Part shown: positions 4,218 through 20,474 of the stretch, one piece after another
How positions within the stretch are numbered: position 1 is the stretch's first letter
Layout: each line of letters starts with the position of its first letter
Assembly (NCBI RefSeq): GCF_001187915.1
Contig: NZ_LGIU01000085.1
Span: forward strand, 1-64,000
Reading direction: 5' to 3'
Length of the DNA stretch: 64,000 bases
From: Arthrobacter sp. RIT-PI-e
Lineage (GTDB): Bacteria > Actinomycetota > Actinomycetes > Actinomycetales > Micrococcaceae
Notes under the pieces: generated by a model
Databases searched by the model: none
The model's input: the letters and a program-made list of their open reading frames with translations, nothing else
What the model was told of the DNA's origin: nothing
Translations under genes and position numbers: made by a program

Positions 4218-4250
4218 GCTTTGAATCGTTTCATTAGCACGTTTCAAAGC
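4218..4250. promoter_or_regulatory. LacI-family operator between rhaI and the regulator
   Basis: Perfect 8-bp inverted repeat GCTTTGAA (4218-4225) / TTCAAAGC (4243-4250). Inside it lies a classical LacI-type site TGAATCGTTTCA (4222-4233), followed by a second half-conserved site centred on the CG at 4240-4241, 13 bp away. It lies 63 bp upstream of the rhaI ATG and 77 bp upstream of the regulator ATG, so it can serve both divergent genes. The 12-mer is repeated exactly, in the other orientation, upstream of lldD at 20463-20474. Confidence 0.85.
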
Positions 4251-4326
4251 TATCCTTGCTCCTGAACGAGTGTCAACAGTCCCGCAGGCATTCCTGCATG
4301 CGGCGCATCAGGATCCCGAGGTGACG

Positions 4327-5358
4327 ATGAGCAGTCGGCCGGTCAGCATCAAGGACGTCGCCGACCGCGCGGGGGTGGCGGTGGGCACCGTGTCCAACGT
4401 GCTCAACCACCCCGCGCGGGTCTCGGACACCACCCGGTCCCGCGTGCAGAGCGCGATCGACGAGCTGGGCTTCGTGCGGAACGACGCCGCCCGTCAGCTC
4501 CGCGCGGGCCAGAGCCGGACCATCGGGCTGATCGTGCTCGACGTCGGCAATCCCTTCTTCTCCTCGCTGGCCCGGGCGGCCGAGGACTGCGCCGCCGAGA
4601 ACGGCAGCACCGTGGTGCTGGGCGACAGCGGGCAGGATCCCGGGCGGGAGGCGCGGTACCTCGACGTCTTCGAGCAGCAGCGGGTGCAGGGGATGCTCGT
4701 CTCGCCGGTCGGCGACCTCGGCGTGCGGATCGACGAGCTGCGCGGGCGTGGCACACCCGTGGTGCTCGTGGACCGGGTGGACCCGCAGGCGCGGTGCAGC
4801 TCGGTGTCCGTGGACGACGTCGCCGGCGGGTACCTGGCCGTGCGGCACCTGCTGGACGCCGGCCGGCGCCGCATCGTCTTCGTGGGTGCGCGTGCCGGGT
4901 ACCGTCAGGTGACCGATCGCCTCACCGGTGCCCGGCAGGCGGTCGGGGAGTGTGCGGGCGCCGTGCTCGAGGTGCTCGAGGCGGAGGACATGACCGTCCT
5001 CGCGGGCCGGGAGGTGGGCGAGGTGGTCGCCCGGCGCTCGCCCGCCGAGCTCCCCGACGGCATCTTCTGCGCCAACGATCTGCTGGCCATCGGTGTCATG
5101 CAGGCGGCGCTGCTGATCCGGGACCTGCGCGTCCCCGAGGACCTCGCCCTGATCGGCTACGACGACATCGACTTCGCCACCTCCACCGTGGTGCCCCTGA
5201 CGAGTGTCCGCAAGCCCACGGAGCTGATGGGGCGCACCGCCGTCGAGCTCCTGCTGGAGCAGATCGAGGACCCGGACTCACCGCGGCGGCAGGTGGTCTT
5301 CCACCCAGAGCTCGTGGAACGCGGCAGCACGACGGCGCTCATCACGGCCGCCGGCTGA
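4327..5358 (+). CDS. LacI-family regulator of rhamnose use
   Basis: 343-residue LacI/GalR repressor. The N-terminal helix-turn-helix (VSIKDVADRAGVAVGTVSNV, residues about 5-25) and hinge helix are followed by a periplasmic-binding-protein-like sugar domain with GLIVLDVGNPFFSSLARA, a DRVDPQ segment and IGYDDIDFATSTVVPLTSV near the C-terminus. ATG 4327 was chosen because a GAGG ribosome site lies 6-7 nt upstream; GTG codons at 4321 and 4270 are in frame but would put extra residues before the conserved start. It is divergent from rhaI, and the shared intergenic operator suggests it represses the operon, itself and probably lldD. The effector (rhamnose or rhamnulose) is inferred from context. 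Confidence 0.92.
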   Translation: MSSRPVSIKDVADRAGVAVGTVSNVLNHPARVSDTTRSRVQSAIDELGFVRNDAARQLRAGQSRTIGLIVLDVGNPFFSSLARAAEDCAAENGSTVVLGDSGQDPGREARYLDVFEQQRVQGMLVSPVGDLGVRIDELRGRGTPVVLVDRVDPQARCSSVSVDDVAGGYLAVRHLLDAGRRRIVFVGARAGYRQVTDRLTGARQAVGECAGAVLEVLEAEDMTVLAGREVGEVVARRSPAELPDGIFCANDLLAIGVMQAALLIRDLRVPEDLALIGYDDIDFATSTVVPLTSVRKPTELMGRTAVELLLEQIEDPDSPRRQVVFHPELVERGSTTALITAAG

Positions 5359-5376
5359 CGTCAATTGGACCACTGG

Positions 5377-5394
5377 GCGTGGAGATCTCCACGC
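5377..5394. repeat. 18-bp perfect palindrome upstream of rhaM
   Basis: GCGTGGAGA followed by its exact complement, with no spacer, in the 58-bp gap between the LacI gene and rhaM. It could be a weak attenuating hairpin or a protein site. There is no T-tract. Confidence 0.5.
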
Positions 5395-5416
5395 TCCCCC
5401 TCATGGAAGGAACCCC

Positions 5417-5749
5417 ATGGAACGCGTGTGCTTCCAGCTGCAGGTCAAGATCGAGCGCATCGCCGAGTACCGCGAGCGCCACCGGGCGATCTGGCCGGAG
5501 ATGGCCCGGGCGCTGAAGGACACGGGGTGGCACAACTACTCCCTGTTCCTGCGCCCGGACGGTCTGCTGATCGGGTACGTGGAGTCCGAGGACTTCGCGG
5601 CCGCCCAGGCCGCCATGGCCGCGACCGACGTCAATGCCCGGTGGCAGGCGGAGATGGGCGAGTTCTTCGTGGCCCTCGACGGTCGCCCCGACGAGGGGTT
5701 CCTCCGCCTCGAGGAGGTCTTCCACCTCGAGGACCAGCTGGAACGCTGA
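5417..5749 (+). CDS. rhaM: L-rhamnose mutarotase
   Basis: 110 residues, the usual length of RhaM. It interconverts alpha- and beta-L-rhamnopyranose, supplying the anomer used by the isomerase. The family signature EYRERHRAIWPEM is present with the catalytic His at residue 22, followed by GWHNYSLFLRPDGLLIGYVE and the C-terminal LEEVFHLE. A GGAAGGAA ribosome site precedes ATG 5417. It lies 58 bp downstream of the LacI gene in the same direction, so the two are probably co-transcribed. Confidence 0.94.
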   Translation: MERVCFQLQVKIERIAEYRERHRAIWPEMARALKDTGWHNYSLFLRPDGLLIGYVESEDFAAAQAAMAATDVNARWQAEMGEFFVALDGRPDEGFLRLEEVFHLEDQLER

Positions 5750-5768
5750 CCGGCGGTCCCGCGAGGAC

Positions 5769-8246
5769 CTACGGGACGGTGATCCGTGGGATGGACGCCG
5801 TGATCAGCGACCCGTCCGCGCGTCGCGTCCCGGCGATGTCCTTGGTGGACGGGGCGCCCCGCAGCCGCGGGCCCTGGTGGGGGAGAGGAACCGTCACCGG
5901 GGCATCCATGCGCACGTGCACCGGAGCACCGTGGACCGAGACGTCGACGGCGTCGCCGGCCTCCACGGTCAGGGTGATCGCCTGCTGCGTCACCTCGGCG
6001 CGCAGCCGCGTGCCGCGCAGGGTCACCCGGAACCTGATGCGGCTCCAGGTCTCGGGCAGACGCGGCTCGAAGGTGATGCGCCCGCCGTGGTCGCGCATGC
6101 CGCCGAAGCCGTACACCATCGCGCTCCAGATCCCACCGGTCGAGGCGACGTGCACGCCGTCGGAGGTGTTCCGGTGGAGGTCGGCGAGATCCACGTACAG
6201 CGAGGACACGAAGTACTTGAGGGCGAGGTCCTGGTACCCCACCTCGGACGCGATGATCGACTGCACCACGGCCGAGAGCGTGGAGTCCCCCGTGGTGAGG
6301 GCCTCGTAGTACTCGAAGTCCGAGCGCTTCTGCTCCGCGGTGAACTCGTCGCCCATCAGGTGCAGCGCGAGGACGACGTCGGCCTGCTTGAGCACCTGGA
6401 AGCGGTAGATCACGAGCGGGTGGTAGTGCAGGAGCAGCGGACGCTTGTCCGCGGGCGTGTGCTCCAGGTCCCACAGCTCCTTCTCGAGGAACGCCGCGTC
6501 CTGGGGGTGGATGCCGGCCCGCTCGTCGAAGGGGATGTGCATCTTGTCGGCGGCCAGTATCCAGTCGCTGAGCTCCTCCTCACGCAACTGCAGGCGCGAG
6601 ACCATCCTGGCGTGGGCGACGGCGTCGACGGCCCGGAGCCGTTCCACGGCGCGGGCGGCCGAGCGGAGGTTCGCCCGTGCCATCACATTGGTGTAGAGGT
6701 TGTCGTTCACCACGGTGGTGTACTCGTCGGGTCCGGTCACCCCGTGGATGTGGAAGTTGTCGTCCCCGTTGCTGCGCCAGAAGCCGAGGTCGGCCCACAT
6801 GCGCGCAGTCTCGACGAGGATGTCGATCGCCCCGCGGGTCAGGAAGTCCTCGTCGCCGGTGGCGGCCACGTACTGCATCAGGGCGTAGGAGATGTCGGCG
6901 TCGATGTGGTACTGCGCGGTACTGGCGGCGTAGTAGGCCGAGGACTCCTGGCCGTTGATGGTGCGCCACGGGAACAGCGCCCCGTGCTGGTTGAGCTCGG
7001 CGGCACGGGCGCGCGCCGGTTCGAGCATGCTCTGGCGGAAGCGCAGGGCGTTGCGTGCCACCACCGGTGCGGTGTAGCTGAGGAACGGCAGCACGTACAC
7101 CTCCGTGTCCCAGAAGTAGTGGCCCCCGTACCCGGACCCGGTGACGCCCTTCGCGGCGACGCCCCCGCCGTCGGTCCGCGCGGTGGCCTGCGCGAGCTGG
7201 AACAGGTTCCACCGCACGGCCTGCTGGACGGCGGGCTGGTCCTCCACCTCGACGTCGGAGCGCGCCCAGAAGTCGTTCAGCCACGCACGCTGCTTCCGGT
7301 ACTGCTCGTCCAGGGGCGTCTCGCGGGCGCGGTCGAGCGTGCGGCGGCAGCGGTCGGCGAGCTCCCGCACCGGGACGCCGCTGGAGGTGTGGTACGAGAT
7401 GTGCTTGACGAGCCGCACAGGGCGTCCCGGCTTCGCCTTGATCCGGTAGACGTGCTTCGCGAGGTCGTCCTCGAGGAAGGAGTCCTCCTGCCACTCGTTG
7501 TTCGTGACGAGCCGGTGCTCCACCGCGCACGCGATGGTCATCGTGGAGTTGGTGGTGCTGTAACCGAGGAGGTAGCGGGAGTCCTCGAGGCACTTGAGCC
7601 GCGGCTGGAGGACCCGGTCGCGGAAGGACTCCGCCCTGCGCGGGTCGAAGGCCCCCTGCTCCGCGACGGCTGCCACATGGTACTCGTCCACGGCGTCCTG
7701 CCGGTTGAGGATCTGGCTGGAGATGAGCACGGACGCCTCGGCGTCGAGCATCTCGACCTCGTAGTCGATGACGGCCAGGTGACGGTCCGTGAAGGAGACC
7801 AGGCGGCGTGAGCGGACCAGGACGTGCTTGCCCGAGGGCGTACGCCATTCGAGCTCACGGACCAGGACGCCGTCGGCGAAGTCCAACCGCCGCGAATGGC
7901 GGAGGATGTCCGCCTCCGTCAGCACGAACGCCTCGTCGTCGATGTACAGGCGGATGATCTTGGCGTCGGGGACGTTGACGATGGTCTGCCCCACGCGCGC
8001 GAAACCGAACGCCTCCTCCGCGTGCTGGATGGGCCACGTCTCGTGGAACCCGTTGATGAAGCTCCCGGACGCGTACGCGTCGCGGCCCTCGTCGAGATTG
8101 CCGCGGAGTCCGAGGTAACCGTTGCCCACGCAGAACAGGGTCTCGTTGCGGCCCTGGAGCGCGGGGTCGAACTCCGCCTCGACGAGCGCCCACTCGTCCA
8201 CGGGGAAGTGACTGCGGTCGAGTGGATCGGAGGTGATCAGATTCAT
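5769..8246 (-). CDS. Glycoside hydrolase family 65 disaccharide phosphorylase
   Basis: 825-residue GH65 enzyme, likely a cytosolic phosphorylase that splits an alpha-linked glucose disaccharide (trehalose, maltose, kojibiose or nigerose) with phosphate to give beta-glucose 1-phosphate. It begins MNLITSDPLDRSHFPVDEW and has the N-terminal beta-sandwich entry FCVGNGYLGLRGNLDEG. The catalytic-acid motif GVTGPDEYTTVVNDN places the Glu near residue 508. The (alpha/alpha)6 barrel includes GYGGHYFWDTEVYVLPF and the phosphate-binding region near TGGIWSAMVYGFGG. The partner pgmB lies 16 bp upstream, as expected for a phosphorylase. No clear ribosome site precedes ATG 8246, so coupling to pgmB is likely. 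Substrate cannot be told from sequence alone. Confidence 0.92.
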   Translation of the reverse strand: MNLITSDPLDRSHFPVDEWALVEAEFDPALQGRNETLFCVGNGYLGLRGNLDEGRDAYASGSFINGFHETWPIQHAEEAFGFARVGQTIVNVPDAKIIRLYIDDEAFVLTEADILRHSRRLDFADGVLVRELEWRTPSGKHVLVRSRRLVSFTDRHLAVIDYEVEMLDAEASVLISSQILNRQDAVDEYHVAAVAEQGAFDPRRAESFRDRVLQPRLKCLEDSRYLLGYSTTNSTMTIACAVEHRLVTNNEWQEDSFLEDDLAKHVYRIKAKPGRPVRLVKHISYHTSSGVPVRELADRCRRTLDRARETPLDEQYRKQRAWLNDFWARSDVEVEDQPAVQQAVRWNLFQLAQATARTDGGGVAAKGVTGSGYGGHYFWDTEVYVLPFLSYTAPVVARNALRFRQSMLEPARARAAELNQHGALFPWRTINGQESSAYYAASTAQYHIDADISYALMQYVAATGDEDFLTRGAIDILVETARMWADLGFWRSNGDDNFHIHGVTGPDEYTTVVNDNLYTNVMARANLRSAARAVERLRAVDAVAHARMVSRLQLREEELSDWILAADKMHIPFDERAGIHPQDAAFLEKELWDLEHTPADKRPLLLHYHPLVIYRFQVLKQADVVLALHLMGDEFTAEQKRSDFEYYEALTTGDSTLSAVVQSIIASEVGYQDLALKYFVSSLYVDLADLHRNTSDGVHVASTGGIWSAMVYGFGGMRDHGGRITFEPRLPETWSRIRFRVTLRGTRLRAEVTQQAITLTVEAGDAVDVSVHGAPVHVRMDAPVTVPLPHQGPRLRGAPSTKDIAGTRRADGSLITASIPRITVP

Positions 8247-8262
8247 GGAGTGCGATCCCGGA

Positions 8263-9017
8263 CTAGGAGGTGGGGGCTGCAGGGAGGAGGGGAACGAACT
8301 CGCCGAGGTCGTCGACGACGACGTCGGCGCCATGGCTGAGCAGGGTCTCGGCGCCCACGCCGCGATCCACCCCGACCACGAGGCCGAAGCCGCCGGCCCG
8401 GCCCGACTCCCCCCCGGCGGGGCGTCCTCGATCACCGCGCAGGCGGCGGCCGGGGGGCCGGGGAGCTCCGCCGCATAGGCGTAGGTGTCCGGGGCGGGTT
8501 TGCCCGCCATGCCGCGTTCGGCGGCGACGAGGCCGTCCACCACCACCGTGAACCGGTGCCGGAGGTCCGCGGCCTCGAGGACGGCGACGCCGTTGCGCGA
8601 GCTCGTGACCACGGCGATCTGGAGGCCGTGGGCCACGGCCGCGTCGAGGAGTGCCACGGAGCCCGGGTACGCGGTGACGCCCTCCTCGCGCAGCGTGCGG
8701 TTGAACACGGCGTTCTTCCGGTTGCCCAGTCCGCAGACGGTCTCGCGGTCCGGTGGGTCGTCCGGGAGGCCCGCCGGCAGCGACACACCGCGTGAGGCCA
8801 GGAACGCGCGCACGCCGTCGTAGCGGGGGCGTCCGTCGATGTACGTGAAGTAGTCGCTGTCCGTGTAGGCCCCGGATTCCGCGGTGACCGCGTGGTCGTC
8901 GAACAGCTGTGACCAGGCCCGCATGTGCACCTCGGCGGTGGGCGTGAGTACGCCGTCGAGATCGAAGAGGAGCGCCTCGAGCGGTGCGAGGCGGCTCGAG
9001 AGGGGAGATGACGGCAC
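8263..9017 (-). pseudogene. pgmB: Beta-phosphoglucomutase, one-base frameshift
   Basis: HAD-superfamily mutase that would convert beta-glucose 1-phosphate from the GH65 enzyme to glucose 6-phosphate. HAD motifs are in order: LLFDLDGVLTP, VVTSSRNG, MAGKPAPDTY and VIEDAP. After VIEDAP the frame is lost at a run of seven C (plus strand 8409-8415). Adding one base restores GRAGGFGLVVGVDRGVG and a normal stop at 8263, giving 251 residues, the family length. Start chosen: GTG 9017; it has only a weak ribosome site, and a GTG at 9176 is an alternative. Without the extra base the frame runs on into the GH65 gene. Sequencing error or recent mutation cannot be separated here. Confidence 0.85.
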
Positions 9018-9397
9018 GGGGCGGCAGCTTTCGGGTTCGCGGGGAGGGGCGACGACGGTCCGGCCCCGGCCAGGAGGACGATCCGGCTCCGGTTCACCGG
9101 ACAGGACCGGGAACCGGGCGGGTCGAGGACCGCCTGTGACATCCGGCTGTCGACATCCGGTCGGCCCGAGCCGCACCTTGCGTCGGGACCGACCCCATCC
9201 TATCCTCCGGGACCTCCGGAGCGGGTGCTCCCGGTGCCCTGTTACGGGCGCACGCGGCGGAGGGTGTTCGTGTGAGACCGCACGGGTCGGTGTGTTCCGC
9301 GGCTAGACTCCCGGCAGGGGCTGTGACGCGGTGCCGCGCGGACCCCACCGTCACCCCTCCGCTCCCCGCAGCCGCCGCCACCACGAAGGAACACCCC
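9018..9397. promoter_or_regulatory. Divergent intergenic region
   Basis: About 380 bp between pgmB and the NmrA-like gene. A TAGACT box at about 9303-9308 could be the -10 of the plus-strand gene, and TAGGAT (complement, about 9197-9202) the -10 of pgmB. A 9-bp direct repeat GACATCCGG occurs twice around 9138-9160. No gene is recognised. Confidence 0.35.
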
Positions 9398-10306
9398 ATG
9401 ACCACGACAGTCCTGGTAGCCGGTGCCACCGGAGATCTCGGTGAGCGCATCGTCCGTGAACTCCTCCTCCACGACACCCGGGTGCGGGTGCCCCCCCGTC
9501 CCGGCGGGTCCCGTGCCGCCGTGCTTTGCGGGCCCCGCCGGGACCGCGTGGACGTCGTCGAGGCCGCCTACACGGATCCGGTGGCGCTCACCTCAGCCCT
9601 GCTGGGCGCGGACGCGGTGGTGTCCGCGGTGAACGGGACCCAGGACGTGATCCTCGACGCCCAGCGTGCCCTGCTCGCGGCCGCCGTCCGCGCCGGGGTG
9701 CCGCGGTTCATCCCCTCCGACTACTCGGCGGACTACCGACGGATCGCGCTGGGCAGCAACCGGAACTTCGAGCTCCGCCGGCAGTTCGCGGCGGATCTCG
9801 ACGCCGCTCCCGTCCGCGCCACCTCGATCCTCAACGGCGCCTTCACGGACATGCTCACCGGTCAGGCGCCCATGATCCTGTTCGCCCGGCGGCGCGTGCT
9901 GTTCTGGTCGTCGGCGGACCAGGTCCTCGATTTCACCACCAAGGACGACGCCGCCGCCGTCACCGCACGCGTGGCGCTGGACGAGGACGCCCCCCGCGTG
10001 GTCGAGATCGCGGGGGATCGTGTGACCGCCCGCGACGTCGCGCGCATCATGGGTGAGCTGACGGGAACGCCCTTCGGCCTGCAGTGGGCGGGTACCACGG
10101 GATCCCTCGCGGCCATGAGCAATCTCATGCGGCGGTTCTCGAGGACCACGGCCGAGCCCTTCCCGGCCTGGCAGGGCATGCAGTACTTCGTCAGCATGTT
10201 CAGCGGCCAGGCCCAGCTGCGCCATGTGGACAACGAGCGGTACGGACGGTGGGAGTGGACCACCGTGCGCGACGTCATCGGCGCCCATCTGGCCGCACAG
10301 GGCTGA
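9398..10306 (+). CDS. NmrA-like NAD(P)-binding protein
   Basis: 302-residue atypical SDR of the NmrA/isoflavone-reductase type. The N-terminal Rossmann loop is VLVAGATGDLGERI, followed by GADAVVSAVNG and RAGVPRFIPSDYSADYRR, which carries the family position of the conserved Lys/Tyr region. The C-terminal part lacks further motifs. ATG 9398 follows a GAAGGA ribosome site 7 nt upstream. The family includes redox-sensing regulators as well as true reductases. Substrate is unknown and neighbours give no hint. It stands alone as a monocistronic gene. Confidence 0.85.
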   Translation: MTTTVLVAGATGDLGERIVRELLLHDTRVRVPPRPGGSRAAVLCGPRRDRVDVVEAAYTDPVALTSALLGADAVVSAVNGTQDVILDAQRALLAAAVRAGVPRFIPSDYSADYRRIALGSNRNFELRRQFAADLDAAPVRATSILNGAFTDMLTGQAPMILFARRRVLFWSSADQVLDFTTKDDAAAVTARVALDEDAPRVVEIAGDRVTARDVARIMGELTGTPFGLQWAGTTGSLAAMSNLMRRFSRTTAEPFPAWQGMQYFVSMFSGQAQLRHVDNERYGRWEWTTVRDVIGAHLAAQG

Positions 10307-10402
10307 GCCCGGCACCCCGCGCTGCGGGGAGCGAGACCGACGCGTCGCAGCCCCGGTCCGTCCGGCGTCCGTCGTCGTTGGGCAATACCGGCGCGGCCTC
10401 AG

Positions 10403-10408
10403 TACTGT
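10403..10408 (+). promoter_or_regulatory. -10 box of a leaderless start
   Basis: TACTGT ends 6 nt before ATG 10415, where transcription would start at or next to the A of ATG. A TTGGGC -35-like hexamer lies at 10378-10383 (19-bp spacer). There is no ribosome site. Confidence 0.5.
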
Positions 10409-10414
10409 TTGACC

Positions 10415-11263
10415 ATGGCCTCCTCCCTCAGAAACAGCCGCGCTGCTGCGCTTCCCGCCAAGCTCTCCCGATCCTGGCTGCTGGCCTCCGCGGCGTCCGA
10501 GGACAACTTCATCCCGGCCCTGACCTCCGAGGCGGACTCCGTGGTCTTCGACATGGAGGACGCCGTACCCGCCGGCGGCAAGGCGGAGGCCCGCGAGCGC
10601 GTGGTCGAGGCGCTCTCCACGGGAATGACGGCGTGGGTGCGGGTCAACGGGATCGAGACGGACTACTGGGCGGACGATCTCGCCGCGCTCTCCAAGGCCC
10701 CGGGCCTGCGCGGGGTGATGCTCGCCATGACCGAGAAGCCGGAGCAGGTCACCCACACGGCCATGCGACTCACGGCCGGTACCCCCGTGCTGGCCCTGAT
10801 CGAGTCCGCCCTGGGCATCGAGAACGCGACGGCGATCGCCAGCGCCCCCGGCACCTTCCGTCTCGCGTTCGGCGTGGGTGACTTCCGCCGTGACACGGGA
10901 GCCTCGGACGAGCCCATGGCGCTCGCCTACGCGCGCGCCAAGCTCGTCGTCGCATCCCGCGTGGGACAGCTGCCCGGGCCGATCGACGGCCCCACCGTGG
11001 GGGCGCTCGGCGACACCCTGCTGGAGGCGTGCAAGGTCACCGCGTCCATGGGGATGACCGGCAAGCTGTGCCTGCTGACGGATGCAACGGACACCATCAA
11101 CCGGGGGTTGTCCCCGAGCGATTCCGAGATCAAGTGGGCGTCGGAGCTCCTGCGGGAGCACGAGGCGGGCGCCATCGTGGGCGACGGCTCCTACCTTCCC
11201 CGTCTGGCCCGCGCCCAGAAGATCTCCTCGCTCGCGGACTCCTACGGGCTCTGGAACGCCTGA
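10415..11263 (+). CDS. HpcH/HpaI aldolase / citrate-lyase beta-like protein
   Basis: 282-residue CitE-like lyase with a TIM-barrel fold; members cleave or form C-C bonds on CoA thioesters or oxo-acids with Mg2+. Visible motifs are SVVFDMEDAVPAGGKAEAR (metal-binding acidic residues), AWVRVNGIETDYW, LALIESALGI and LAFGVGDFRRDTG, all in family order. ATG 10415 was chosen; a TTG two codons earlier is possible. No ribosome site exists and the -10 box sits so close that the mRNA is probably leaderless. No lyase alpha or gamma subunits lie nearby, so it is not part of a citrate lyase complex. Substrate is unknown. Confidence 0.87.
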   Translation: MASSLRNSRAAALPAKLSRSWLLASAASEDNFIPALTSEADSVVFDMEDAVPAGGKAEARERVVEALSTGMTAWVRVNGIETDYWADDLAALSKAPGLRGVMLAMTEKPEQVTHTAMRLTAGTPVLALIESALGIENATAIASAPGTFRLAFGVGDFRRDTGASDEPMALAYARAKLVVASRVGQLPGPIDGPTVGALGDTLLEACKVTASMGMTGKLCLLTDATDTINRGLSPSDSEIKWASELLREHEAGAIVGDGSYLPRLARAQKISSLADSYGLWNA

Positions 11264-11920
11264 CCCCGCCGGCGATCCTCTGGGTCGTCTGCGCAGGGGC
11301 GGACTCCGGGCTCCACCACGCGGAGCGGCACGGCCGTCAAGCGAACGACGGGGTGCACGCGTCCACGGCCCACCGCTCTCCGGGAATCATGTGATGCTCG
11401 AGCGTGATCCGGCTCCCTGGAACCACATCGGTGAGGGAGTCCCATTTCCGCAGTCCTGCCGTACTCCTGCCGCGATGAACGCGTCGAGCTGCACTTTCGC
11501 ATCCCGGGCGGATGTGCTCGCGCGGGTGTTTCCGACATACCTTCGTCGACCGGCATTCCTCGGACGATCCTCGCGGTACGAAGTCTGAAGCGTTCTGCTA
11601 CGACACGACTCTCCAGGACAGCCGAGCCCTTGAACGTCTGCGGAAGTCACGAAGCTCGAAGAGTACCGATCCAATCCGCCGATCATCCATCGCATGTGAT
11701 CGTGCGACCGGTCTCGACCAGTGGGCATCCCTCGGAACGCGTTCGGCAGCGCCGAGGGATGGACGATCGACACAAGCAGGGATTGGCAGCGTGGGCGGGC
11801 ATCAGACACGAGGCGTTCGCCTCTACCCGGGAACACCATGTTCTCGCAGCAGCGGGGTCGGTGTGACTGCGCTGCTGGTTCTGGTGTTACCAGCAGTTGT
11901 GCTTCTACCGTGCACCATAC
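11264..11920. other. Gene-poor region with recombinase remnant
   Basis: About 660 bp without an intact gene. The only recognisable content is the decayed serine recombinase segment at 11387-11545. The stretch 11560-11920 shows no recognisable coding similarity. Base composition looks less extreme than in neighbouring genes. Confidence 0.5.
11387..11545 (-). pseudogene. Serine recombinase (resolvase) N-terminal remnant
   Basis: The minus strand encodes YVGNTRASTSARDAKVQLDA followed by FIAAGV. This resembles the N-terminus of resolvase/invertase proteins (YvGYxRVSTxxQdxxlQldAl..AGV), with the catalytic Ser kept in the position of RVST. The similarity stops after about 30 residues and the frame then ends; there is no start codon in frame and no catalytic core. 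It is best read as the scar of a mobile element. Its similarity is judged by eye and a profile search would be decisive. Confidence 0.5.
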
Positions 11921-12285: not shown

Positions 12286-12346
12286 GGAGGGTCTTCTCCA
12301 CAGGTTTTCACGAGGTCCGCTTCGGAGTACCAACGACACTTGACTC

Positions 12347-12377: not shown

Positions 12378-13883
12378 ATGAACAATGTCGAAGAGCAAGC
12401 GGCCACCAGAGCCACGACGAAGGAGTGGGCATCGCTCGGCGTCCTCACGCTGGCGGTCGGGCTGTTATCGGTCGACGGAACCGTTCTGGCGCTCGCCGTA
12501 CCCTCGATCAGCGAGGATCTGCGACCGACGAGCACCCAGGTCCTATGGATCGGGGACATCTACTCCTTCGCCCTCGCGGGCCTCCTCGTCACGATGGGGA
12601 ATGTGGCCGACCGGGTCGGACGTAAGCGACTGCTGTTGATCGGGGCCGCCTGCTTCGGTGCGGCGTCGGTGCTGGCGGCTTTCGCGCCGAGCCCGGAGGT
12701 GCTCATCATGGCTCGGGCCCTGCTCGGCGTTGCGGGGTCGACGTTGATGCCCTCGACGCTCTCCCTCGTGCGGGCCACATTCCGCAACCCGCGGCAGCGC
12801 ACCACGGCCATTGCCGTCTGGGCGGCAGGGGCCTCAGGCGGGGCCGCGGCAGGCCCCCTCGTCGGCGGCGCGCTGCTCGAGCACTTCCGGTGGGGCTCGG
12901 TCTTCATGATCAACGTGCCGATCATCGTCGTGATCCTCGTCGCAGGTGTCTTCCTGCTCGAGGAGTCGCGGGGTCGGGATCGCGCCGCGATCGATCTGCT
13001 CTCGGCCGGACTGTCCGTCACGGCGATCGTCCCGGTGGTGTACGCCGTCAAGCCCCTCGCCGGACACGGTCTGGAGTGGTCCGTGCCCGCCTCGGCGGTG
13101 CTCGGTGTGGTCGCGGGCGTCGCCTTCGTCCGGCGCCAGCGTCATCTCCGCACCCCGCTGATCGATCTCACGTTGTTCCGCGTCCCCGCGTTCACGGGGG
13201 CGATACTCGCGAACTCACTGGGCGTCTTCGCGTTCATCGGGCTGCTGTTCTTCTTCTCGCAGTACCTGCAGCTGGTCCGCGGACTCTCACCGCTGGAGGC
13301 GGGCATCCACCAGCTGCCCTCGACCGTCGCCTCCGTGACGGCTGTCGCCGTCGTGGGCCTGCTCGCACGCCGTCTCGGTCGTGGACGCGCCATCGGCGGT
13401 GCCCTCCTCGTCGCGGGTGCCGGTATGGGAGCCCTGGTGGTGACGGAGGGCTTCTCGACGTATGCCGGCATCGCCCTGTCACTCGTCGCCCTCGGGCTCG
13501 GCGTCGGGGTGTCGATGACGCTCGCCACCGACGCCGTCGTCGCGGCGGTACCTCGCGAACGGGCCGGAGCCGCATCGGCGATCTCCGAGACCGGGTACGA
13601 ACTCGGCACGGCCCTCGGTATCGCGGTCCTGGGGTCCCTGCAGATGGCCTTCTACCGCTCACAGCTGGATCTCGACGGCGTGCCCGCAAAGGACGTCGAC
13701 GCAGTCCGCGAGTCCCTCGCGAGGGCCTCGGACGTCCTGCCCCCGAGCTCGGAGGTCCTCTCTCGGGCCCAGGAGGCGTTCACTGTCGGTATGCAGCTGA
13801 CCTCCGTGTGCGCCGCCGTGCTCCTCGTCGTGGGGGGCGTCATCGCCCTACGGGTCATCGCCGCCGATGAGGACGCCACGTGA
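12378..13883 (+). CDS. DHA2-family MFS drug efflux transporter (QacA/SmvA-like)
   Basis: 501-residue inner-membrane proton antiporter with 14 predicted helices, expected to export lipophilic or cationic compounds. Seen: helix 1 GVLTLAVGLLSVDGTVLALA with the Asp of motif D1, the loop 2-3 motif A GNVADRVGRKRLLLIG, and motif C in helix 5 (AAGASGGAAAGPLVGG). The C-terminus ends with one more helix before the stop. ATG 12378 lies 11 bp after the operator and has no strong ribosome site. The stop overlaps the TetR start as GTGA, so pump and regulator form one operon with likely autoregulation. Confidence 0.92.
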   Translation: MNNVEEQAATRATTKEWASLGVLTLAVGLLSVDGTVLALAVPSISEDLRPTSTQVLWIGDIYSFALAGLLVTMGNVADRVGRKRLLLIGAACFGAASVLAAFAPSPEVLIMARALLGVAGSTLMPSTLSLVRATFRNPRQRTTAIAVWAAGASGGAAAGPLVGGALLEHFRWGSVFMINVPIIVVILVAGVFLLEESRGRDRAAIDLLSAGLSVTAIVPVVYAVKPLAGHGLEWSVPASAVLGVVAGVAFVRRQRHLRTPLIDLTLFRVPAFTGAILANSLGVFAFIGLLFFFSQYLQLVRGLSPLEAGIHQLPSTVASVTAVAVVGLLARRLGRGRAIGGALLVAGAGMGALVVTEGFSTYAGIALSLVALGLGVGVSMTLATDAVVAAVPRERAGAASAISETGYELGTALGIAVLGSLQMAFYRSQLDLDGVPAKDVDAVRESLARASDVLPPSSEVLSRAQEAFTVGMQLTSVCAAVLLVVGGVIALRVIAADEDAT

Positions 13884-14461
13884 GCGGCAGCCGGGGGGTT
13901 CGCCCCCTGCGTGATCGTGACCGGACGAGGGCGCAGATCCTGGAAGCCGCGGAACGGATGATCGCGGTACAAGGCCTGGCAGTGAGCGTCGCCGGCATCG
14001 CCCAGCGGGCAGGTGTCTCCAAGAGCGGGCTCCTGCACCACTTCCCCTCGCGGGAGGCGCTGCTCCTCGCTGTTGCCGAGCGGGGCCTGCAGGAGCTGAT
14101 CGACGAGGTCGAGCGGCACCTCGACCCTGCTGACACAACCCCTGGTCGGCGTACCCGGGCCTATGTCCGGACGCTCTGCGGAGACAGCCCGAGAGCCGCG
14201 GCCCTGTTCTCGCCGACCGCACTGCTCAACGCCCTTCTCACCGTCCCCGGTGCGCAGGCCCTGGTGCGCCAGGACGCCGAGTACTGGCGCCGGTTCTTCG
14301 GCGAGGACGGGCTCCCTGCGGCGCGCTACCTGGTGGTCCGTCATGCAGCCGAGGGCTTGGCCGCGGCCTCCACGGTCTCCCCCTACCTCACGCCCGATGA
14401 GCTCGCCGTGGCTCGCGGCGCCCTCCTCGACCTGGTCACCGCCGTTCCGGGTGGGATCTGA
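13880..14461 (+). CDS. TetR-family repressor of the adjacent pump
   Basis: 193 residues. The N-terminal TetR helix-turn-helix spans residues about 12-58 (RAQILEAAERMIAVQGLAVS, AGVSKSGLLHHFPSREALL). The C-terminal ligand domain is of the TetR_C_37 kind, with few fixed residues. GTG 13880 overlaps the stop of the MFS gene (GTGA), indicating coupled translation. The perfect inverted repeat in the promoter of this two-gene operon is the probable binding site, and a substrate of the pump the probable inducer. Confidence 0.9.
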   Translation: MSGSRGVRPLRDRDRTRAQILEAAERMIAVQGLAVSVAGIAQRAGVSKSGLLHHFPSREALLLAVAERGLQELIDEVERHLDPADTTPGRRTRAYVRTLCGDSPRAAALFSPTALLNALLTVPGAQALVRQDAEYWRRFFGEDGLPAARYLVVRHAAEGLAAASTVSPYLTPDELAVARGALLDLVTAVPGGI

Positions 14462-14466
14462 GCCCA

Positions 14467-14486
14467 CCGAGCGCCGCGGGGCTCGG
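14467..14486 (+). terminator. Hairpin after the tetR gene
   Basis: CCGAGC (14467-14472) pairs with GCTCGG (14481-14486), 6 nt after the stop codon. The stem is short and there is no T-tract. Confidence 0.35.
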
Positions 14487-14757
14487 ACTCCCGACCACCC
14501 TTGCAACACGATGAGGTGGGCGGACGGGAATGTGGGCGAGCCTCGGTGGTCGCGTCAGGTCCGAGCCCGCGAGCCGCAGCCTGCTCGGTTGGGCTTCCAC
14601 CGACCCGTCGACGACCACCATCACGACCCTTACGACGACTGTGCGAAAAATCGCCGTCCGCTCCAGGGCCAGGTGGGGTTGTCGTACTCCCGGTCCCGGT
14701 GGTGCGACCAGCCAGAAGATGATCGGACCGACGATGCCATAAGCCAGTAGGAGCGCC

Positions 14758-14835
14758 GGCCGGAGCCGGCCTCGACCGGTCGAGGAACACGTCCGGGTCC
14801 GCCGTGCGTACGACCGCAGACTCTTCTGCGGTCGT
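14758..14835. repeat. Cluster of three inverted repeats
   Basis: GGCCGG/CCGGCC (14758-14763, 14766-14771), a 16-bp perfect palindrome CCTCGACCGGTCGAGG (14770-14785), and an 11-bp stem ACGACCGCAGA (14810-14820) with its complement at 14825-14835 and a 4-nt loop. The last would fold stably as RNA in either direction. No gene is near enough to assign a terminator. Confidence 0.55.
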
Positions 14836-15165
14836 TCGGCCGTTCTTCACACCGTTCTCGTTGTTTTCCCGCACACGGCGGGGTCGAGCTCGAGCACCCC
14901 GACGGGGACCACGCGCGACAGCTCGGTCGATGATGCTCGTGTCTGCATCCGGCAAAGCTGCTCAGAGCGGTACTACCGGTCGGTGTCCTCGGAGGCGTCG
15001 CTCCCTGGAGTCGGAACATCGCCTGAGGGGCCGTCGTCGCAGTGACAGGTGGTTCACGGATCCCTGGCGCCCACATCACACGACGCCCACCTCCTCCGGG
15101 GCGCCTGTACACCCCGACCGAATCCGAACTGTGTGAGGACAATTTCGAGTACCCCGGAAACGACG

Positions 15166-15204
15166 GCCGTGGAAGCCACCGAGTTCTGCCGTGGCTTCCA
15201 CGGC
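15166..15204. repeat. 14-bp perfect inverted repeat
   Basis: GCCGTGGAAGCCAC (15166-15179) and its exact complement (15191-15204) are separated by 11 nt. It could be a strong hairpin, a transposon-end relic or a terminator. It stands outside any gene. Confidence 0.65.
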
Positions 15205-15348
15205 GACTATCACGACCATGGTCACATCAAGCGTTCGGACGACGGTGACGGTACCTCTGCTCATCGTCCGAAGCTTGACCCGTGCAGGCGGGACCCGCCG
15301 GAGACGGGACCGAGTGACTCATGACGAGTGGTCCAGCGGAAGCGCGGT

Positions 15349-15810
15349 TCAGCGTGCGTCGATGAAGGTGGGGTGTTGATCCATCGGGTGAGGGCGCCGA
15401 GGTGTGCGTCGTGGGAGACGTCGGCGGGTTCGGCACGGTTGTCCTCGTGCCGCGGTGGGTGAACGGGATCGTCTGCTCGTCGGTGAACATGCCGTGTTCG
15501 GCGTAGAGGGCCGGGGTCGGGGCGGTGATACTCGTCCATTCCTCCCAGCAGGGTCCCATGATGACGGTGATCGCCCGGGCCATCACGCCCGCATCGAACC
15601 GCGGCCACGAACCATCGTCGCGTTCTTCGACGTTCGCGACCCACGCAGACGCAGGAGGGCGGTCCCCGAGAGTGGCCCACGAGGACGACTTCTCGGCCGG
15701 TGGAGTGTGGGTGTCAGGAGAGGAATTCCCGGCTGCCACCGGCGAGTCCATGAAGTATCACCACCGCCGGATCGGCGCCGTCGAGGACGGTGCAGGTCGT
15801 GCTCACACCC
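15349..15810 (-). pseudogene. Alpha/beta hydrolase remnant
   Basis: Minus-strand pieces of one hydrolase in the expected order but in different frames. GADPAVVILHGLAGGSREF is the oxyanion region after strand 3, then REVVLVGHSRG is a degraded nucleophile elbow. Next comes MGPCWEEWTSITAPTPALYA with EHGMFTDEQ, the region before the acid residue, and SHDAHLGALTRWI is the catalytic-His region. The ancestral stop is at 15349. At least two frameshifts and a large loss between the N-terminal and central parts are needed to explain it, so it is not functional. A substrate cannot be assigned. Confidence 0.75.
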
Positions 15811-16080
15811 CGTGGGAGACGATTCCCTGCGTCAACTCGGCCGTCCAGTGCTCCCAGGGCGAATTCTCCGCGTTCGTCGAGGAGCGCTGCAGGATCGCGC
15901 CGGATGGGGATGATGCCGTCCTCACCGGGGTGGAGGGGTCTGCTGTGTGGTGGAGCGTGGGATCGGTTCATGGGTCCCGGGCCGGGTTTCATGACACCGA
16001 CCGGTGTGGTCGAGGATCCGGTGGTCAGTGGCATGGAGCGGGTGGAGCTCGAGGAGCACATCGCCCGTGAGAGATGGCAC

Positions 16081-16112
16081 GAGCCCTGTTTCCGTTGCCG
16101 GAAACAGGGCTC
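16081..16112 (-). terminator. Strong 14-bp hairpin after the YrzE-like gene
   Basis: GAGCCCTGTTTCCG (16081-16094) pairs perfectly with 16099-16112 around a TTGC loop. It lies 52 bp downstream of the stop of the minus-strand membrane protein gene. It lacks a T-tract, as often in actinobacteria. Confidence 0.65.
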
Positions 16113-16164
16113 GTGGTGTGAGCGACGTATCTGCCTCTTCGTCCAGCAGGAGTATGTCGTCGGG

Positions 16165-16911
16165 TTACTTGCGGGTGGTGTGCTCGTCGATGCGTGAAGT
16201 GCTGACGGAGCGTGATCCGAGGAGTCCGGTGAAGGAGGCCACGACTGCGCCGATCAGGAGGCCGAAGAAGGTCCACAGGGTCCCTGCGGCCGCGGTGTCG
16301 GCTGCTTCTTCGGCTTCGGGGGCGTTCTCCTGTGCGGTTCGGGCCACCTCGTCCTGTGCGTCGGAGGCTGCCTGGCTGGCTTCTGCGGCGCTGACGTCAG
16401 GAGCGGCGTCGGCGGCCTGCTGGGGGTTCTGCGTCACGGCGTCACTGACGGTGGAGGCGGTGGATCCGAGGATGCTGCCGGCGGCGCCCAGGACATTGCC
16501 GACCAGCAGGCCGGCGAGTACCACGATGGCCAGCAGGGACGTGGCCCAGGTGAGGAAGCCGTGGATGAGGCCGCTGCGGGCCGAGAGGGCGCCGGCGACG
16601 TATCCGCCGGCGGCCAGGGCGAGGGCCAGGGTGATGATGGAGGAGATTCCGGTGGCGATTCCGACGCCCTCGCCGGGATTACCTGAATCCAGGTCCGCCA
16701 GACCCAGACCGAGGGTCGCGGTGATGAGGGAGAGCAGGATGGTCAGGGCCAGGAACGTGACGACGCCGGCGATCACCGCTCCCCAGGAGATGTTGCGGAG
16801 GCTACCGGGTCGGTCGTCGCCGAAAGCGGCTTCTTTCCATGAGGTCCTCGGTGTTACGGAGACTTCGTGGGACGAAGCGCGACCGGCCTTCGAGGGTGTG
16901 GTGCTGGGCAT
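16165..16911 (-). CDS. YrzE-like multi-helix membrane protein
   Basis: 248 residues with a hydrophilic N-terminus of about 38 residues. There are four predicted helices: about 42-68 (SWGAVIAGVVTFLALTILLS), 88-108, 115-145 (HGFLTWATSLLAIVVLAGLL) and 212-233 (LWTFFGLLIGAVVASFTGLL). An Ala/Glu-rich stretch at about 160-205 (SAAEASQAASDAQDEVARTA) lies outside the membrane and may be coiled. The arrangement resembles YrzE/PhnA-like membrane proteins of unknown function. A second protein with the same ARSGLIHG-type helix pattern lies at 24289-25245. It sits in a stress-gene neighbourhood (csbD, marR, glsB). Confidence 0.75.
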   Translation of the reverse strand: MPSTTPSKAGRASSHEVSVTPRTSWKEAAFGDDRPGSLRNISWGAVIAGVVTFLALTILLSLITATLGLGLADLDSGNPGEGVGIATGISSIITLALALAAGGYVAGALSARSGLIHGFLTWATSLLAIVVLAGLLVGNVLGAAGSILGSTASTVSDAVTQNPQQAADAAPDVSAAEASQAASDAQDEVARTAQENAPEAEEAADTAAAGTLWTFFGLLIGAVVASFTGLLGSRSVSTSRIDEHTTRK

Positions 16912-17097
16912 GGGAGCTCCTGAAAGAGGTGGAGGTCATCCCCGGTGGATGAAGGGTACGCGGGGATGATGTGAGTAAGGGTATTGATGCGTATCCATGC
17001 GGGCGTGCGAGGGCTGCGCGGGTCTCGAGGAGAACTCCGGAGGGCTGTCCCGGCTCGCCTGGTGCAGGTGGGGGCAGATGTGGTCGAGCAGGCGTCA

Positions 17098-17137
17098 GGG
17101 ACCACCCGACAGCGTGGGGGTGGTGTCGGGTGGTCCC
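17098..17137. repeat. 14-bp inverted repeat
   Basis: GGGACCACCCGACA (17098-17111) and its complement (17124-17137) with a 12-nt loop, between csbD and the YrzE-like gene. It may be a second terminator or an RNA processing site. Confidence 0.5.
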
Positions 17138-17157
17138 CGACCTCCGCCTGACCTGGA

Positions 17158-17188
17158 CCACCTGGTAGTAAGGGGTAATACCAGGTGG
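17158..17188 (-). terminator. Terminator of csbD
   Basis: CCACCTGGTA (17158-17167) pairs with TACCAGGTGG (17179-17188) around an 11-nt loop, 14 bp beyond the csbD stop on the minus strand. Confidence 0.65.
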
Positions 17189-17202
17189 TTGCCCGGGGAT
17201 GG

Positions 17203-17373
17203 TTATTTGAACGCGTCCTTCACGTTCTCGCCGGCGTCCTTGAGGTTGCCCTCGGACTGTTCGGCCTGCCCTTCCGCCTGGAGACGCTCGTTATCGGTCG
17301 CATCCCCGTAGGCCTCCTTGGCTTTTCCGGCGACCTTCTCGGCGGCGTTCTTGATCTTGTCGTCCAGTCCCAT
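17203..17373 (-). CDS. csbD: CsbD-family stress protein
   Basis: 56-residue hydrophilic helical protein beginning MGLDDKIKNAAEKVAGKAKE and ending GNLKDAGENVKDAFK, the signature of the CsbD family. It is rich in Ala, Lys, Glu and Gly with no Cys. In Bacillus CsbD is a sigma-B general stress protein of unknown mechanism. A ribosome site (GAAGGAA) precedes ATG 17373. A terminator hairpin follows, so it is probably transcribed alone. It is divergent from the MarR gene, with the AT-rich island between them. Confidence 0.92.
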   Translation of the reverse strand: MGLDDKIKNAAEKVAGKAKEAYGDATDNERLQAEGQAEQSEGNLKDAGENVKDAFK

Positions 17374-17504
17374 GGCGTGTTCCTTCGTGTAGATGTTGCT
17401 GATGGATCGGGTCGGTGCACTGCTGTCATCCAGGGATGAGGGATCATCTCCGAGATCTGGCGGCTGGTGTGTCGCCGAACTCCTTGATCGATGTATCCAT
17501 CACC

Positions 17505-17630
17505 TCTACCAGACCATACAGACTCACTCGAAAATCTACAAACTAGGTATTCTTTTTAGTCATTATTTTAGTAATAAGTACTCTTGTTATCATTGTGTGA
17601 CAGGCTGGTTCGTTGACGTCAGCTGACGTC
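17505..17630. promoter_or_regulatory. AT-rich promoter island before the MarR gene
   Basis: A conspicuous AT-rich block (about 17525-17605) within otherwise very GC-rich DNA, including TTATT/AATAA inverted repeats (17563-17577). It is followed by a perfect 16-bp palindrome GACGTCAGCTGACGTC at 17615-17630. It lies between divergent csbD and marR genes. The palindrome ends 35 bp before the MarR ATG and is a candidate autoregulatory site. Confidence 0.6.
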
Positions 17631-17665
17631 TGGTCCTCAGGACGGTCATGGAAGGTGAGGCAAAG

Positions 17666-18157
17666 ATGAGTGAGTGCGACGATGATCGGGCTCGCTCCCG
17701 ATCGAACCCGCTCGAGCACGTCGAGACCATGGTGGACACCCTGCGCCAGTTGCGTCAGCTCACCGATCGGGGATACCGGGAGCACCGGGACGCCATGCAC
17801 CTCAATGACAAGGACATGGCTGCTCTGGAGTATCTGTCCCAGGAGTGGAAGGACGAACGCACGGTGAGTCCCAAAGACGTTGCGGCACACCTGGGGCTGA
17901 CCTCCGCCACGACGACGGCGATCATCGACAGGCTCGAGAACGAGGGATATCTCCAGCGCCGTCGTGCCACGCGTGATCGCAGAGGGGTTCATCTCACGCC
18001 GGCACCGGCGATGAAGGATTGGGAACGGCGGCATCCTGTCGAATCATTACGGGCAAGCGTCATCGACGCCGCCACTCATCTCGGTGGTGAGGAGGCCCGC
18101 ATCGTCCAGGGCTATCTCTCCACGGTCCTCGACGACGTCCGACGACGCCTGACCTGA
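17666..18157 (+). CDS. MarR-family regulator
   Basis: 163 residues with a winged helix-turn-helix: MAALEYLSQEW, TVSPKDVAAHLGLTSATTTA (helices 3-4, residues about 68-90) and the wing LQRRRATRDRRGVHLTPA. ATG 17666 was preferred over ATG 17648 because GGTGAGG sits 6 nt upstream of it. The C-terminal dimerisation helices are intact. Targets are unknown; the palindrome at 17615-17630 and divergent csbD are the nearest candidates. Confidence 0.9.
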   Translation: MSECDDDRARSRSNPLEHVETMVDTLRQLRQLTDRGYREHRDAMHLNDKDMAALEYLSQEWKDERTVSPKDVAAHLGLTSATTTAIIDRLENEGYLQRRRATRDRRGVHLTPAPAMKDWERRHPVESLRASVIDAATHLGGEEARIVQGYLSTVLDDVRRRLT

Positions 18158-18797
18158 GAACCGCCTCGTCCGGATCATGAGTAGCAGAGCTCACCCAGGA
18201 GCAAGACCTTCCTGGCATGTTCCCGCAGGGATGGATGCTCATGTCGAACTACGGGACCGGCAACACGACGCCGCCCGTACTCGGGAGCATCAGCACGGAG
18301 TGGTGAACACGACGCCCTGTCCTCCAATGGCCGACAGCCCCGTCGACCGCTCGACGACTGAAGTCGACACATGTTCCCTCATCCGAACCGACGACGACTT
18401 CGGACTGTCCCGAGAAGTTTCCCATCCACTGAGACCGTCCAGAAGGCGTTGACAGGGCTGACGTCCTGGAGGGAAACGGCTATGGCTGCAGGCTTGGGCA
18501 AAGCAGATACCGCATGGCTCGACGAGGATGCTGCAGGGACCATCGGGCATCCGTGATCATGGCCTTCGAAGAGGCGAGCTCGCCGTACGCCCCCGAGGAG
18601 AACCGAGTAGGGGATTCGCGTAGCCATGGCTCATGCCCGTGGAGGCCGACAGGATCTGATCGCGCCTCGCCCAGCCGTGCAGTGGCTCCTCTCGTCCGGG
18701 CGGGGATCCCGGGGCAGGCAATAGAAACGGGCGCAGACAGGTTACAACCGTTCGACACCAGCTTCCCGCTGTTCATCGACCTACCAGGAGACACCTC
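18158..18797. other. 640-bp region without recognisable gene
   Basis: Only short frames in all phases, none with family motifs or a good ribosome site. The last 15 bases hold the AGGAG ribosome site of glsB. It may contain a long leader or decayed sequence. Nothing specific is seen. Confidence 0.5.
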
Positions 18798-19058
18798 ATG
18801 ATCGGATTCATCATCGCCGGCCTCATCATCGGCGCACTTGCACGCCTCATCAAACCGGGGAAGCAGAACCTGGGCCTTCTCGCCACGCTGCTGCTGGGGC
18901 TCGTGGGATCCATCATCGGCGGCTCGGTCGCGAGCCTTCTCGGCACGGGCGACATCTTCGAGCTGAACATCTTCGGATTCATCGTCTCGGTCATCGCGGC
19001 CGTACTGTTGATCGGCGTCGCCGAGACGCTCGCCGGTCGCCGCCGCGTCACCCGCTGA
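18798..19058 (+). CDS. GlsB/YeaQ/YmgE-family membrane stress protein
   Basis: 86 residues with three hydrophobic helices: IGFIIAGLIIGALARLIKPG (residues 2-21), LLATLLLGLVGSIIGGSVAS, and FGFIVSVIAAVLLIGVAETL. The GALARLIKPG turn and GLVGSIIGG are family hallmarks (formerly transglycosylase-associated protein). AGGAG lies 9 nt upstream of ATG 18798. In Gram-positives the family is linked to envelope stress; the exact function is unknown. Confidence 0.92.
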   Translation: MIGFIIAGLIIGALARLIKPGKQNLGLLATLLLGLVGSIIGGSVASLLGTGDIFELNIFGFIVSVIAAVLLIGVAETLAGRRRVTR

Positions 19059-19065
19059 GTACTGC

Positions 19066-19097
19066 AGGGGAGGGGCGGCGCCGGCTGTTCCTCCCCT
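19066..19097. terminator. Bidirectional hairpin between glsB and lldD
   Basis: AGGGGAGG (19066-19073) pairs with CCTCCCCT (19090-19097); the 16-nt loop itself contains GC-rich complementarity. It separates two convergent genes. Confidence 0.5.
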
Positions 19098-19115
19098 ACC
19101 CGGCGCCGGTCCGGC

Positions 19116-20381
19116 CTATCCCGGGTAGGCGGCCATCTCACCGGTTGCCCGTGGAACGGGTACGAGGCGGGTGAGCTGGGTGACGTGCTTGGGTTCGAGC
19201 TCGCCGAGGTGGCTGACGCCGAGCAGGCGCATGGTCCGCTCGATCTCGTCCCGGAGGATCGCGATAGTCCTGTCCACGCCCTCGCGCCCGCCGGCCATCA
19301 ACCCGTAGAGGTAGGCGCGGCCGATCAGGGTGAACTTCGCCCCCAGGGCCATGCACGCCACGATGTCCGCCCCGTTCATGATGCCGGTGTCCACCATGAC
19401 CGTGGCATCCGCCCCCACCTCGCGGACCACCTGCGGCAGCAGGTGGAAGGGGATGGGTGCGCGGTCGAGCTGACGGCCGCCGTGGTTGGAGAGGATGATG
19501 CCGTCCACCCCCAGATTCACCAGGCGCACGGAGTCCTCGACGTTCTGCACACCCTTGATCACGATCTTCCCGGGCCACAGGTCCCGGATGACGGCGAGGT
19601 CCTCGTAGCTGATGGTCGGATCCATGGCCGCGTTGATCAGATCCCCCACCGTTCCGCCGGTGTCGGTCAGGGACGCGAACTCGAGCTTGCGCGTGGTGAG
19701 GAAGTCGATCCACCACCACGGCCGGGGGACGGCGTCGAGGATGGTGCCGATGGACAGCTGAGGTGGGATCGAGAACCCGTTGCGCTTGTCCCGCAGGCGG
19801 GCGCCGGCCACCGGGGTGTCCACGGTGAACATGAGGGTGTCGAATCCCGCCTCACCGGCACGGCGTGCGAGCTCGTAGGAGATCTCCCGCTGTCGCATCA
19901 CGTACAGCTGGAACCAGTTGCGCCCGTTCGGATTGGCCTCCTTCACGCCCTCGATCGAGGTGGTCCCGAGGGTGGAGAGGGTGAAGGGGATGCCCGCGGC
20001 CGCCGCGGCGCCGGCCCCCGCGGTCTCGCCCTCGGTCTGCATGAGCCGCGTGAACCCGGTGGGGGCGATGCCGAAGGGCAGGGCGCTGGGGCCGCCGAGG
20101 ATCTCCACGGAGGTGTCCACGTGCTCGGCCGGGCGGAGAATCGAGGGGTGGAACTCGATGTCCTCGAACGCCTGCCGGGAACGCTTCATGGACAGCTCGC
20201 CCTCCGCGCCGCCGTCCGTGTAGTCGAAGGCGGCCCGCGGGGTGCGCCGCTTGGCGATCGTGCGCAGATCCCCGATGGTCAGCGCCGCGTCCAGCCTCCG
20301 CTTCTTCCCGTTCAGCTCGAACTTCTTGAACTGCATCAACTCGAGCAGTTCGGCGGGGACGGGAAGCTGGCGCTGGATCAC
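19116..20381 (-). CDS. lldD: FMN-dependent L-lactate dehydrogenase / alpha-hydroxy-acid oxidase
   Basis: 421-residue TIM-barrel flavoprotein that oxidises L-lactate to pyruvate, feeding electrons to the quinone pool. Motifs: [20 protein letters not shown] (FMN entry), [23 protein letters not shown], the catalytic SNHGGRQLD with His at residue 300, and [12 protein letters not shown] at the phosphate site. The start is GTG 20381, with AAAGGA 8 nt upstream. An exact copy of the rhamnose operator lies 82 bp upstream at 20463-20474, so this gene probably oxidises the lactate made from rhamnose. Other 2-hydroxy acids (mandelate, glycolate) cannot be excluded by sequence. Confidence 0.92.
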
Positions 20382-20462
20382 GGGGAACGTCCTTTGGACT
20401 TCGACGGCGAAGGATCGGGTGAGCGGGTGCCCGCCCCGGCGACCGGGACCGGATCCACTCGT

Positions 20463-20474
20463 TGAAACGATTCA
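20463..20474. promoter_or_regulatory. LacI-type operator upstream of lldD
   Basis: TGAAACGATTCA, the exact reverse complement of the site at 4222-4233 in the rha promoter region. The central CG and TGAA/TTCA arms are classic for LacI-family repressors. It lies 82 bp upstream of the lldD start. Confidence 0.8.

Follow-up and report, generated by a model that had tools for sequence, protein, structure and literature searches.

The rha locus, lldD-A and the shared 12-mer

The DNA analyzed here, hereafter the window, is a stretch of 64,000 nucleotides from Arthrobacter sp. RIT-PI-e (contig NZ_LGIU01000085.1, positions 1 to 64,000), which holds a locus for L-rhamnose breakdown, the gene of a LacI-family regulator and, further along, the gene of a flavin mononucleotide (FMN)-dependent dehydrogenase, with one 12-mer repeated before the rhamnose genes and before the dehydrogenase gene. 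The minus strand carries rhaI (2989..4155; L-rhamnose isomerase, TIGR02635 above cut-off), then rhaEW (869..2992; rhamnulose-1-phosphate aldolase / L-lactaldehyde dehydrogenase, TIGR02632 and NF006188 above cut-off, with the start at 2992 read by eye) and the part of rhaB for the N-terminal part of rhamnulokinase (1..868), which runs off the window and was named by context; a rhaB-homologous stretch comes after rhaEW in relatives. Divergent from rhaI, on the plus strand and beside the rha genes, is the repressor gene rhaR (4327..5358; PF00356 and PF13377), for which the start at 4327 was chosen in the analysis while the mechanically listed open reading frame starts at 4270. It is followed by a gene for an L-rhamnose mutarotase-like protein, rhaM (5417..5749; TIGR02625 with E=2e-17, below cut-off).

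The dehydrogenase gene, lldD-A (19116..20381, minus strand), encodes an FMN-dependent 2-hydroxyacid (probably L-lactate) dehydrogenase. The protein matches PF01070 over its full length (E=1.7e-124), being the only full-length match to this family found in the genome, besides three partial ones. It also contains SNHGGRQ, an active-site motif of the FMN-dependent L-lactate dehydrogenase LldD family. In these two features, it is like the members of that family.

The initial annotation had pointed out that a 12-mer before rhaI recurs as its exact complement ahead of this dehydrogenase gene, and both copies were found where it placed them. The window contains TGAATCGTTTCA at 4222-4233 on the plus strand and, as the reverse complement, at 20463-20474 on the minus strand. 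The first copy, putative RhaR operator O1, lies in the rhaR-rhaI intergenic region and reads TGAAACGATTCA on the rhaI strand; the second, putative operator O2, is 82 bp upstream of lldD-A, counted from its near edge (20463) to the GTG start at 20381, just as the annotation had it. The chance expectation for the 12-mer in the window is 0.01, and two copies occurred in 0 of 100 shuffles. With TGAAWCGWTTCA as the query, the window gave two matches without mismatches, none with one or two and fourteen with three, which separates the two sites clearly from the background. Throughout the genome (3.46 Mb, 99.49% complete) TGAAWCGWTTCA matched the same two sites only, and the looser TGAANCGNTTCA gave five matches, the extra three being TGAACCGGTTCA, TGAACCGCTTCA and TGAACCGATTCA.

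Among the matches with three mismatches, a degenerate second copy, TAGCACGTTTCA (4235..4246, plus strand), adjoins O1, and the half-site ACGTTTCAAAG adjoins O1 also in the relatives whose contexts were compared by eye. Reading by eye for promoter elements gave TTGACA-18-TAGCTT ahead of O1 on the rhaI strand and, on the lldD strand, a TAGAGT that shares one base with O2.

Distribution of the motif within the genus

The genus sample consisted of 38 genomes, 23 with rhaI and 15 without it. The motif was present in every genome with rhaI (23/23) versus 3/15 of those lacking it, and the rhaR-rhaI gap holds a TGAAWCGWTTCA site in all 23 (the window and the other 22). Orthologues of RhaR (at least 72% identical) occur in exactly the same 23 genomes as rhaI. 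A second site was located on the far side of rhaR in 21/23 of them; this far side was annotated in one relative (L177), where the site precedes an ABC transporter (ATP-binding cassette) with a binding protein above the cut-off of the RhaS model. In the window, the interval 5359-5749 contains no second RhaR site and rhaM comes directly after rhaR, as it does in G025. The distance to rhaM is 6-7 kb in several relatives, similar to that in L177, where a rhamnose-type ABC transporter occupies this side.

Concerning the scatter of the 12-mer, which the initial annotation had named as a possible objection to its proposal, the 62 sites of the genus are distributed as 44 in rha clusters, six before lldD-A and twelve elsewhere. 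These twelve comprise six before long frames, related to two with domains like those of pectin enzymes, two at sugar transporters of the major facilitator superfamily (MFS) and four unexplained, so that 58/62 sites belong to one of the named settings.

Two kinds of lldD are found in the genus: lldD-A, at least 91% identical to the window gene, and lldD-B, 59-63% identical to it. The A kind is present in ten genomes, the window's included, and nine of these ten have rhaI. In three of the nine (G004, G014 and G021) lldD-A follows rhaI-rhaEW-rhaB in the same direction and lacks a separate site, while in the other six (G000, G002, G003, G006, G022 and G024) it is located away from the rha operon. 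These six copies, among them that of the window, are all preceded by the exact site (6/6), its far edge being 57-93 bp upstream of the gene. In the tenth genome, G010, rhaI and the site are both missing. Concerning lldD-B, there was no site within 1 kb of it in any of 34 genomes, coordinates being compared by eye. The same difference was seen with a position weight matrix (PWM) trained on 37 rhaR-rhaI sites only (L157 was excluded, as there was no RhaR match in that locus): the six lldD-A sites scored 26.2, the best lldD-B score among the 30/34 lldD-B genes that were fetched was 0.2, and 1500 random 200-bp windows reached at most 13.6.

The stand-alone copies of lldD-A occupy four neighbourhoods unrelated by flank similarity (G000; G002 with G024; G003 with G006; G022), where the similarity between copies of different neighbourhoods covers no more than 838 bases upstream and 563 downstream. 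The orientation of the site is the same in five of the copies, and in G022 it is inverted and nearer to the gene, at -57. The upstream regions of the six copies show a mean column identity of 57%, with the 12 bases intact in all six. Poor alignment outside the 12-mer, varied neighbourhoods and the inversion in G022 fit selection for control by RhaR, and not a passive relic. A tree of RhaI plus RhaEW had a resolution too poor for counting relocations or independent operator origins. In an lldD tree obtained by a quick method, the Arthrobacter A copies fell inside Microbacteriaceae, beside Naasia, with a Shimodaira-Hasegawa-like approximate likelihood ratio test (SH-aLRT) value of 92 versus the tool's mark of 95.

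As to other lactate-oxidizing enzymes, no second LldD was found in this genome, in G002 (89% complete) or in G022. The alternative LldF/LutB route gave 0/38 genomes over the cut-off, with weak partial matches only, in a search that did not extend to NAD-dependent lactate dehydrogenases; in the control, the same model was over the cut-off in 4/14 genomes.

Putative control of rhaI and lldD-A by RhaR, and its alternatives

From these comparisons, it seems highly probable that RhaR, the LacI-family protein encoded next to O1, uses the 12-mer as its operator at both rhaI and lldD-A, which would make the latter gene a member that has split off from the rhamnose regulon's main cluster. The case for RhaR is made because the motif lies beside rhaR and co-occurs with rhaI and rhaR, and not because of its letters. 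The split rhamnose-lactate regulon proposed in the initial annotation appears supported within the genus, by the scarcity of the sites and by their conservation, and the rhamnose-lactate link there can be considered, on sequence grounds, real and well supported.

Most likely, RhaR would act as a simple repressor bound to O1 and O2. In the mechanism that we infer, RhaR would, without rhamnose, sit on O1, beside the presumed -10 element of rhaI-rhaEW-rhaB, and on O2, beside the presumed -10 element of lldD-A, blocking both promoters, and a rhamnose-derived inducer would release it. RhaI, RhaB and RhaEW would then make L-lactate and dihydroxyacetone phosphate (DHAP) from rhamnose, and LldD would oxidize the rhamnose-derived L-lactate to pyruvate. 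The formation of L-lactate and DHAP by RhaEW has been shown in vitro, according to the main text of PMC3870299.

In that same text, Rodionova et al. (2013) predicted lldD as a member of the RhaR regulons of certain Actinomycetales; since such regulons were already predicted, lldD here is a further instance of the predicted kind. The likeness to the LacI-type RhaR regulon of Actinomycetales comprises a regulator of the LacI family whose gene adjoins the rha genes, the shared palindromic site before the rha genes, kept in relatives, and the same site before lldD. The difference from the regulon of PMC3870299, as described in its main text, is that here lldD alternates between a position in the cluster and a stand-alone one with its own operator. 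Neither 'Arthrobacter' nor 'TGAA' occurs in that main text, figures and supplements being outside the scope of this statement. What is added here is the operon-or-operator pattern, together with three genomes (this one, G002 and G022) without a second LldD or an LldF-type protein over cut-off. Membership of the regulon would be steady under changing gene order, lldD-A being in the cluster, or outside it with an operator, or neither where the pathway is absent. This gives the rhamnose regulon predicted in 2013 a specific operator sequence and support across the genus. It also points to a directly testable coupling, namely that some Arthrobacter may depend on rhamnose as the signal for oxidizing lactate.

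Several observations weigh against the operator role proposed for the 12-mer or narrow its range. A scan for sigma-70-like promoters at O1 and O2 gave no match at the threshold of the tool. Concerning the enzyme, the initial annotation called it LldD-type, which holds for membership of the FMN-dependent 2-hydroxyacid dehydrogenase family and not for the curated LldD models, both of which stayed below cut-off (NF033901, 254 of 550 bits; PRK11197, 293 of 376). The best solved-structure match by sequence is, moreover, an (S)-mandelate dehydrogenase. Because of the curated models, L-lactate as the substrate is something we infer from the placement of lldD in the rha clusters of relatives, which makes it the probable one. 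Within the genus, rhaI is present in G036, and the lldD homologue of that genome (76%), counted apart from lldD-A, is without the site.

Outside the genus, the support for a site before lldD is largely lost. Stand-alone lldD lacked it in 31/32 rhaI-bearing Microbacteriaceae genomes, the sole exception being Naasia, with TGAATCGATTCA at -112 before the gene. In four more rhaI-bearing genomes lldD is beside rhaEW with no rhaI nearby, and the loci as fetched were without the exact site; these four genomes were counted as linked, outside the 32. No site was found within 1 kb of lldD in 114 further genomes of the family (the motif being present in 40 and an lldD match in 76), in a search that did not include rhaI. 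The conservation before lldD that the initial annotation proposed to check is complete for the stand-alone genes of the genus, the other three of the nine lldD-A genes with rhaI being in the rha cluster, and is nearly absent in the Microbacteriaceae. Since stand-alone lldD beyond the genus is mostly without the site, we restrict the claim to the clade. Finally, the 12-mer is not confined to rhamnose systems. The Escherichia coli regulator Cra is a LacI-family member too. According to PMC11157272, the 12-mer is found unchanged in the distal operator of fruB, and the Cra consensus is one base off it, this being another regulator acting in another pathway than the rhamnose RhaR. In the literature searched, the 12-mer was printed only as this operator, and its reverse complement was not found.

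The coincidence with the Cra operator is also a point in favor of an alternative in which a different LacI-family regulator, for lactate, fructose or general sugars, shares the motif and acts at lldD. At first look, there were 29 candidate RhaR relatives in the same genome, and in G052 a RhaR-like gene (51%) adjoins the 12-mer, far from rhaI. Yet no second RhaR-like match appeared in the own genome at E<=1e-60; the motif is nearly absent where rhaI is missing, both in the genus and in another sample, of 50 named genomes that are for the most part Microbacterium and were selected for a close lldD (0/10 without rhaI, 38/40 with it); and G010, which lacks rhaI, has lldD-A but no site. We consider this alternative unlikely. 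Much less credit still can be given to chance, with the second copy a coincidental 12-base near-palindrome and lldD outside the control of RhaR. It is true that two-copy matches can occur randomly and that the Microbacteriaceae genes are nearly all site-less, but the low expectation in the window, the retention of the site by all six stand-alone orthologues across four unrelated neighbourhoods and the lack of sites near lldD-B make it extremely improbable. A chance match was accordingly rejected on genome-wide scarcity, genus conservation, the PWM contrast and the lack of neighbours with one or two mismatches.

The site could also be a relic of the exit of lldD from the rha operon, without present function. 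That lldD is inside the rha cluster in three sister genomes, and that among 80 named loci (76 outside the genus, L091-L166, 50 of them given whole-genome searches) there are 12 Microbacteriaceae loci in which rhaI, rhaEW and rhaB are followed by lldD on their own strand, makes such an exit conceivable. Against this, lldD within the cluster has no site of its own to leave behind, the 12 bases are intact in upstream regions otherwise poorly conserved, the site of G022 is inverted and nearer to the gene, and the lldD-A copy of the rhaI-less genome has none. A relic is so regarded as very improbable, and an operator of RhaR as the preferred explanation of the 12-mer.

Starting from this RhaR operator, a broader interpretation can be put forward tentatively, as somewhat more doubtful than probable. 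The lldD-A lineage may be a lactate dehydrogenase dedicated to the rhamnose route, which would have moved repeatedly in Arthrobacter genomes and yet have been kept under RhaR while the rha genes were present, either in the cluster or with an operator that would have arisen on at least two occasions, the one of G022 being inverted and nearer to the gene. For the window's genome, G002 and G022, all L-lactate oxidation by the LldD and LldF-type families could then be under the rhamnose repressor.

Further sites and loci

In the six genomes with sites before long frames (L196, L199, L203, L204, L205 and L206), the exact motif precedes related frames of more than 1100 amino acids, which run off the fetched stretches. 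Two of them were scanned for domains, and both have a GDSL esterase domain, one having also part of a rhamnogalacturonan-lyase domain. It is likely that these frames are further targets of RhaR. Similarly, TGAATCGATTCA is found at the starts of the two MFS sugar transporters (L198, 3567; L207, 3410), which are possibly rhamnose permeases.

Among the named loci having both rhaR and rhaI, the gap between them, with rhaM inside it in some, contains the exact site in 11/12, A. ruber included. Two Microbacterium genomes have the 12-mer just before a RhaR-like gene (L244, 5650, 53%; L245, 5511, 51%). rhaI is 5 kb from this gene in L244, where it may be the RhaR of that genome, and about 200 kb away in L245 (G052). 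In G091, of another genus of the family (L229, 4006-11543), an lldD of the B kind is about 6 kb downstream of a site and has the direction of rhaI-rhaEW-rhaB, the interval holding unidentified frames. This suggests that a lactate dehydrogenase was recruited separately to the rha cluster there.

Concerning other lldD genes, the site-less homologue of G036 (L176, upstream of 7458) has about 2.7 kb of its upstream flank in common with the copies of G002 and G024, which do have the site. The lldD of L156, a contig titled Planococcus sp., groups with Microbacterium in the lldD tree; the assembly is possibly mislabelled or contaminated.

In the window, a gene of the phosphorylase type of glycoside hydrolase family 65 (GH65; 5769-8246) adjoins rhaM. 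Its best solved matches are maltose and kojibiose phosphorylases. As GH65 includes a glucosyl-rhamnose phosphorylase, a rhamnoside is a possible substrate of its product.

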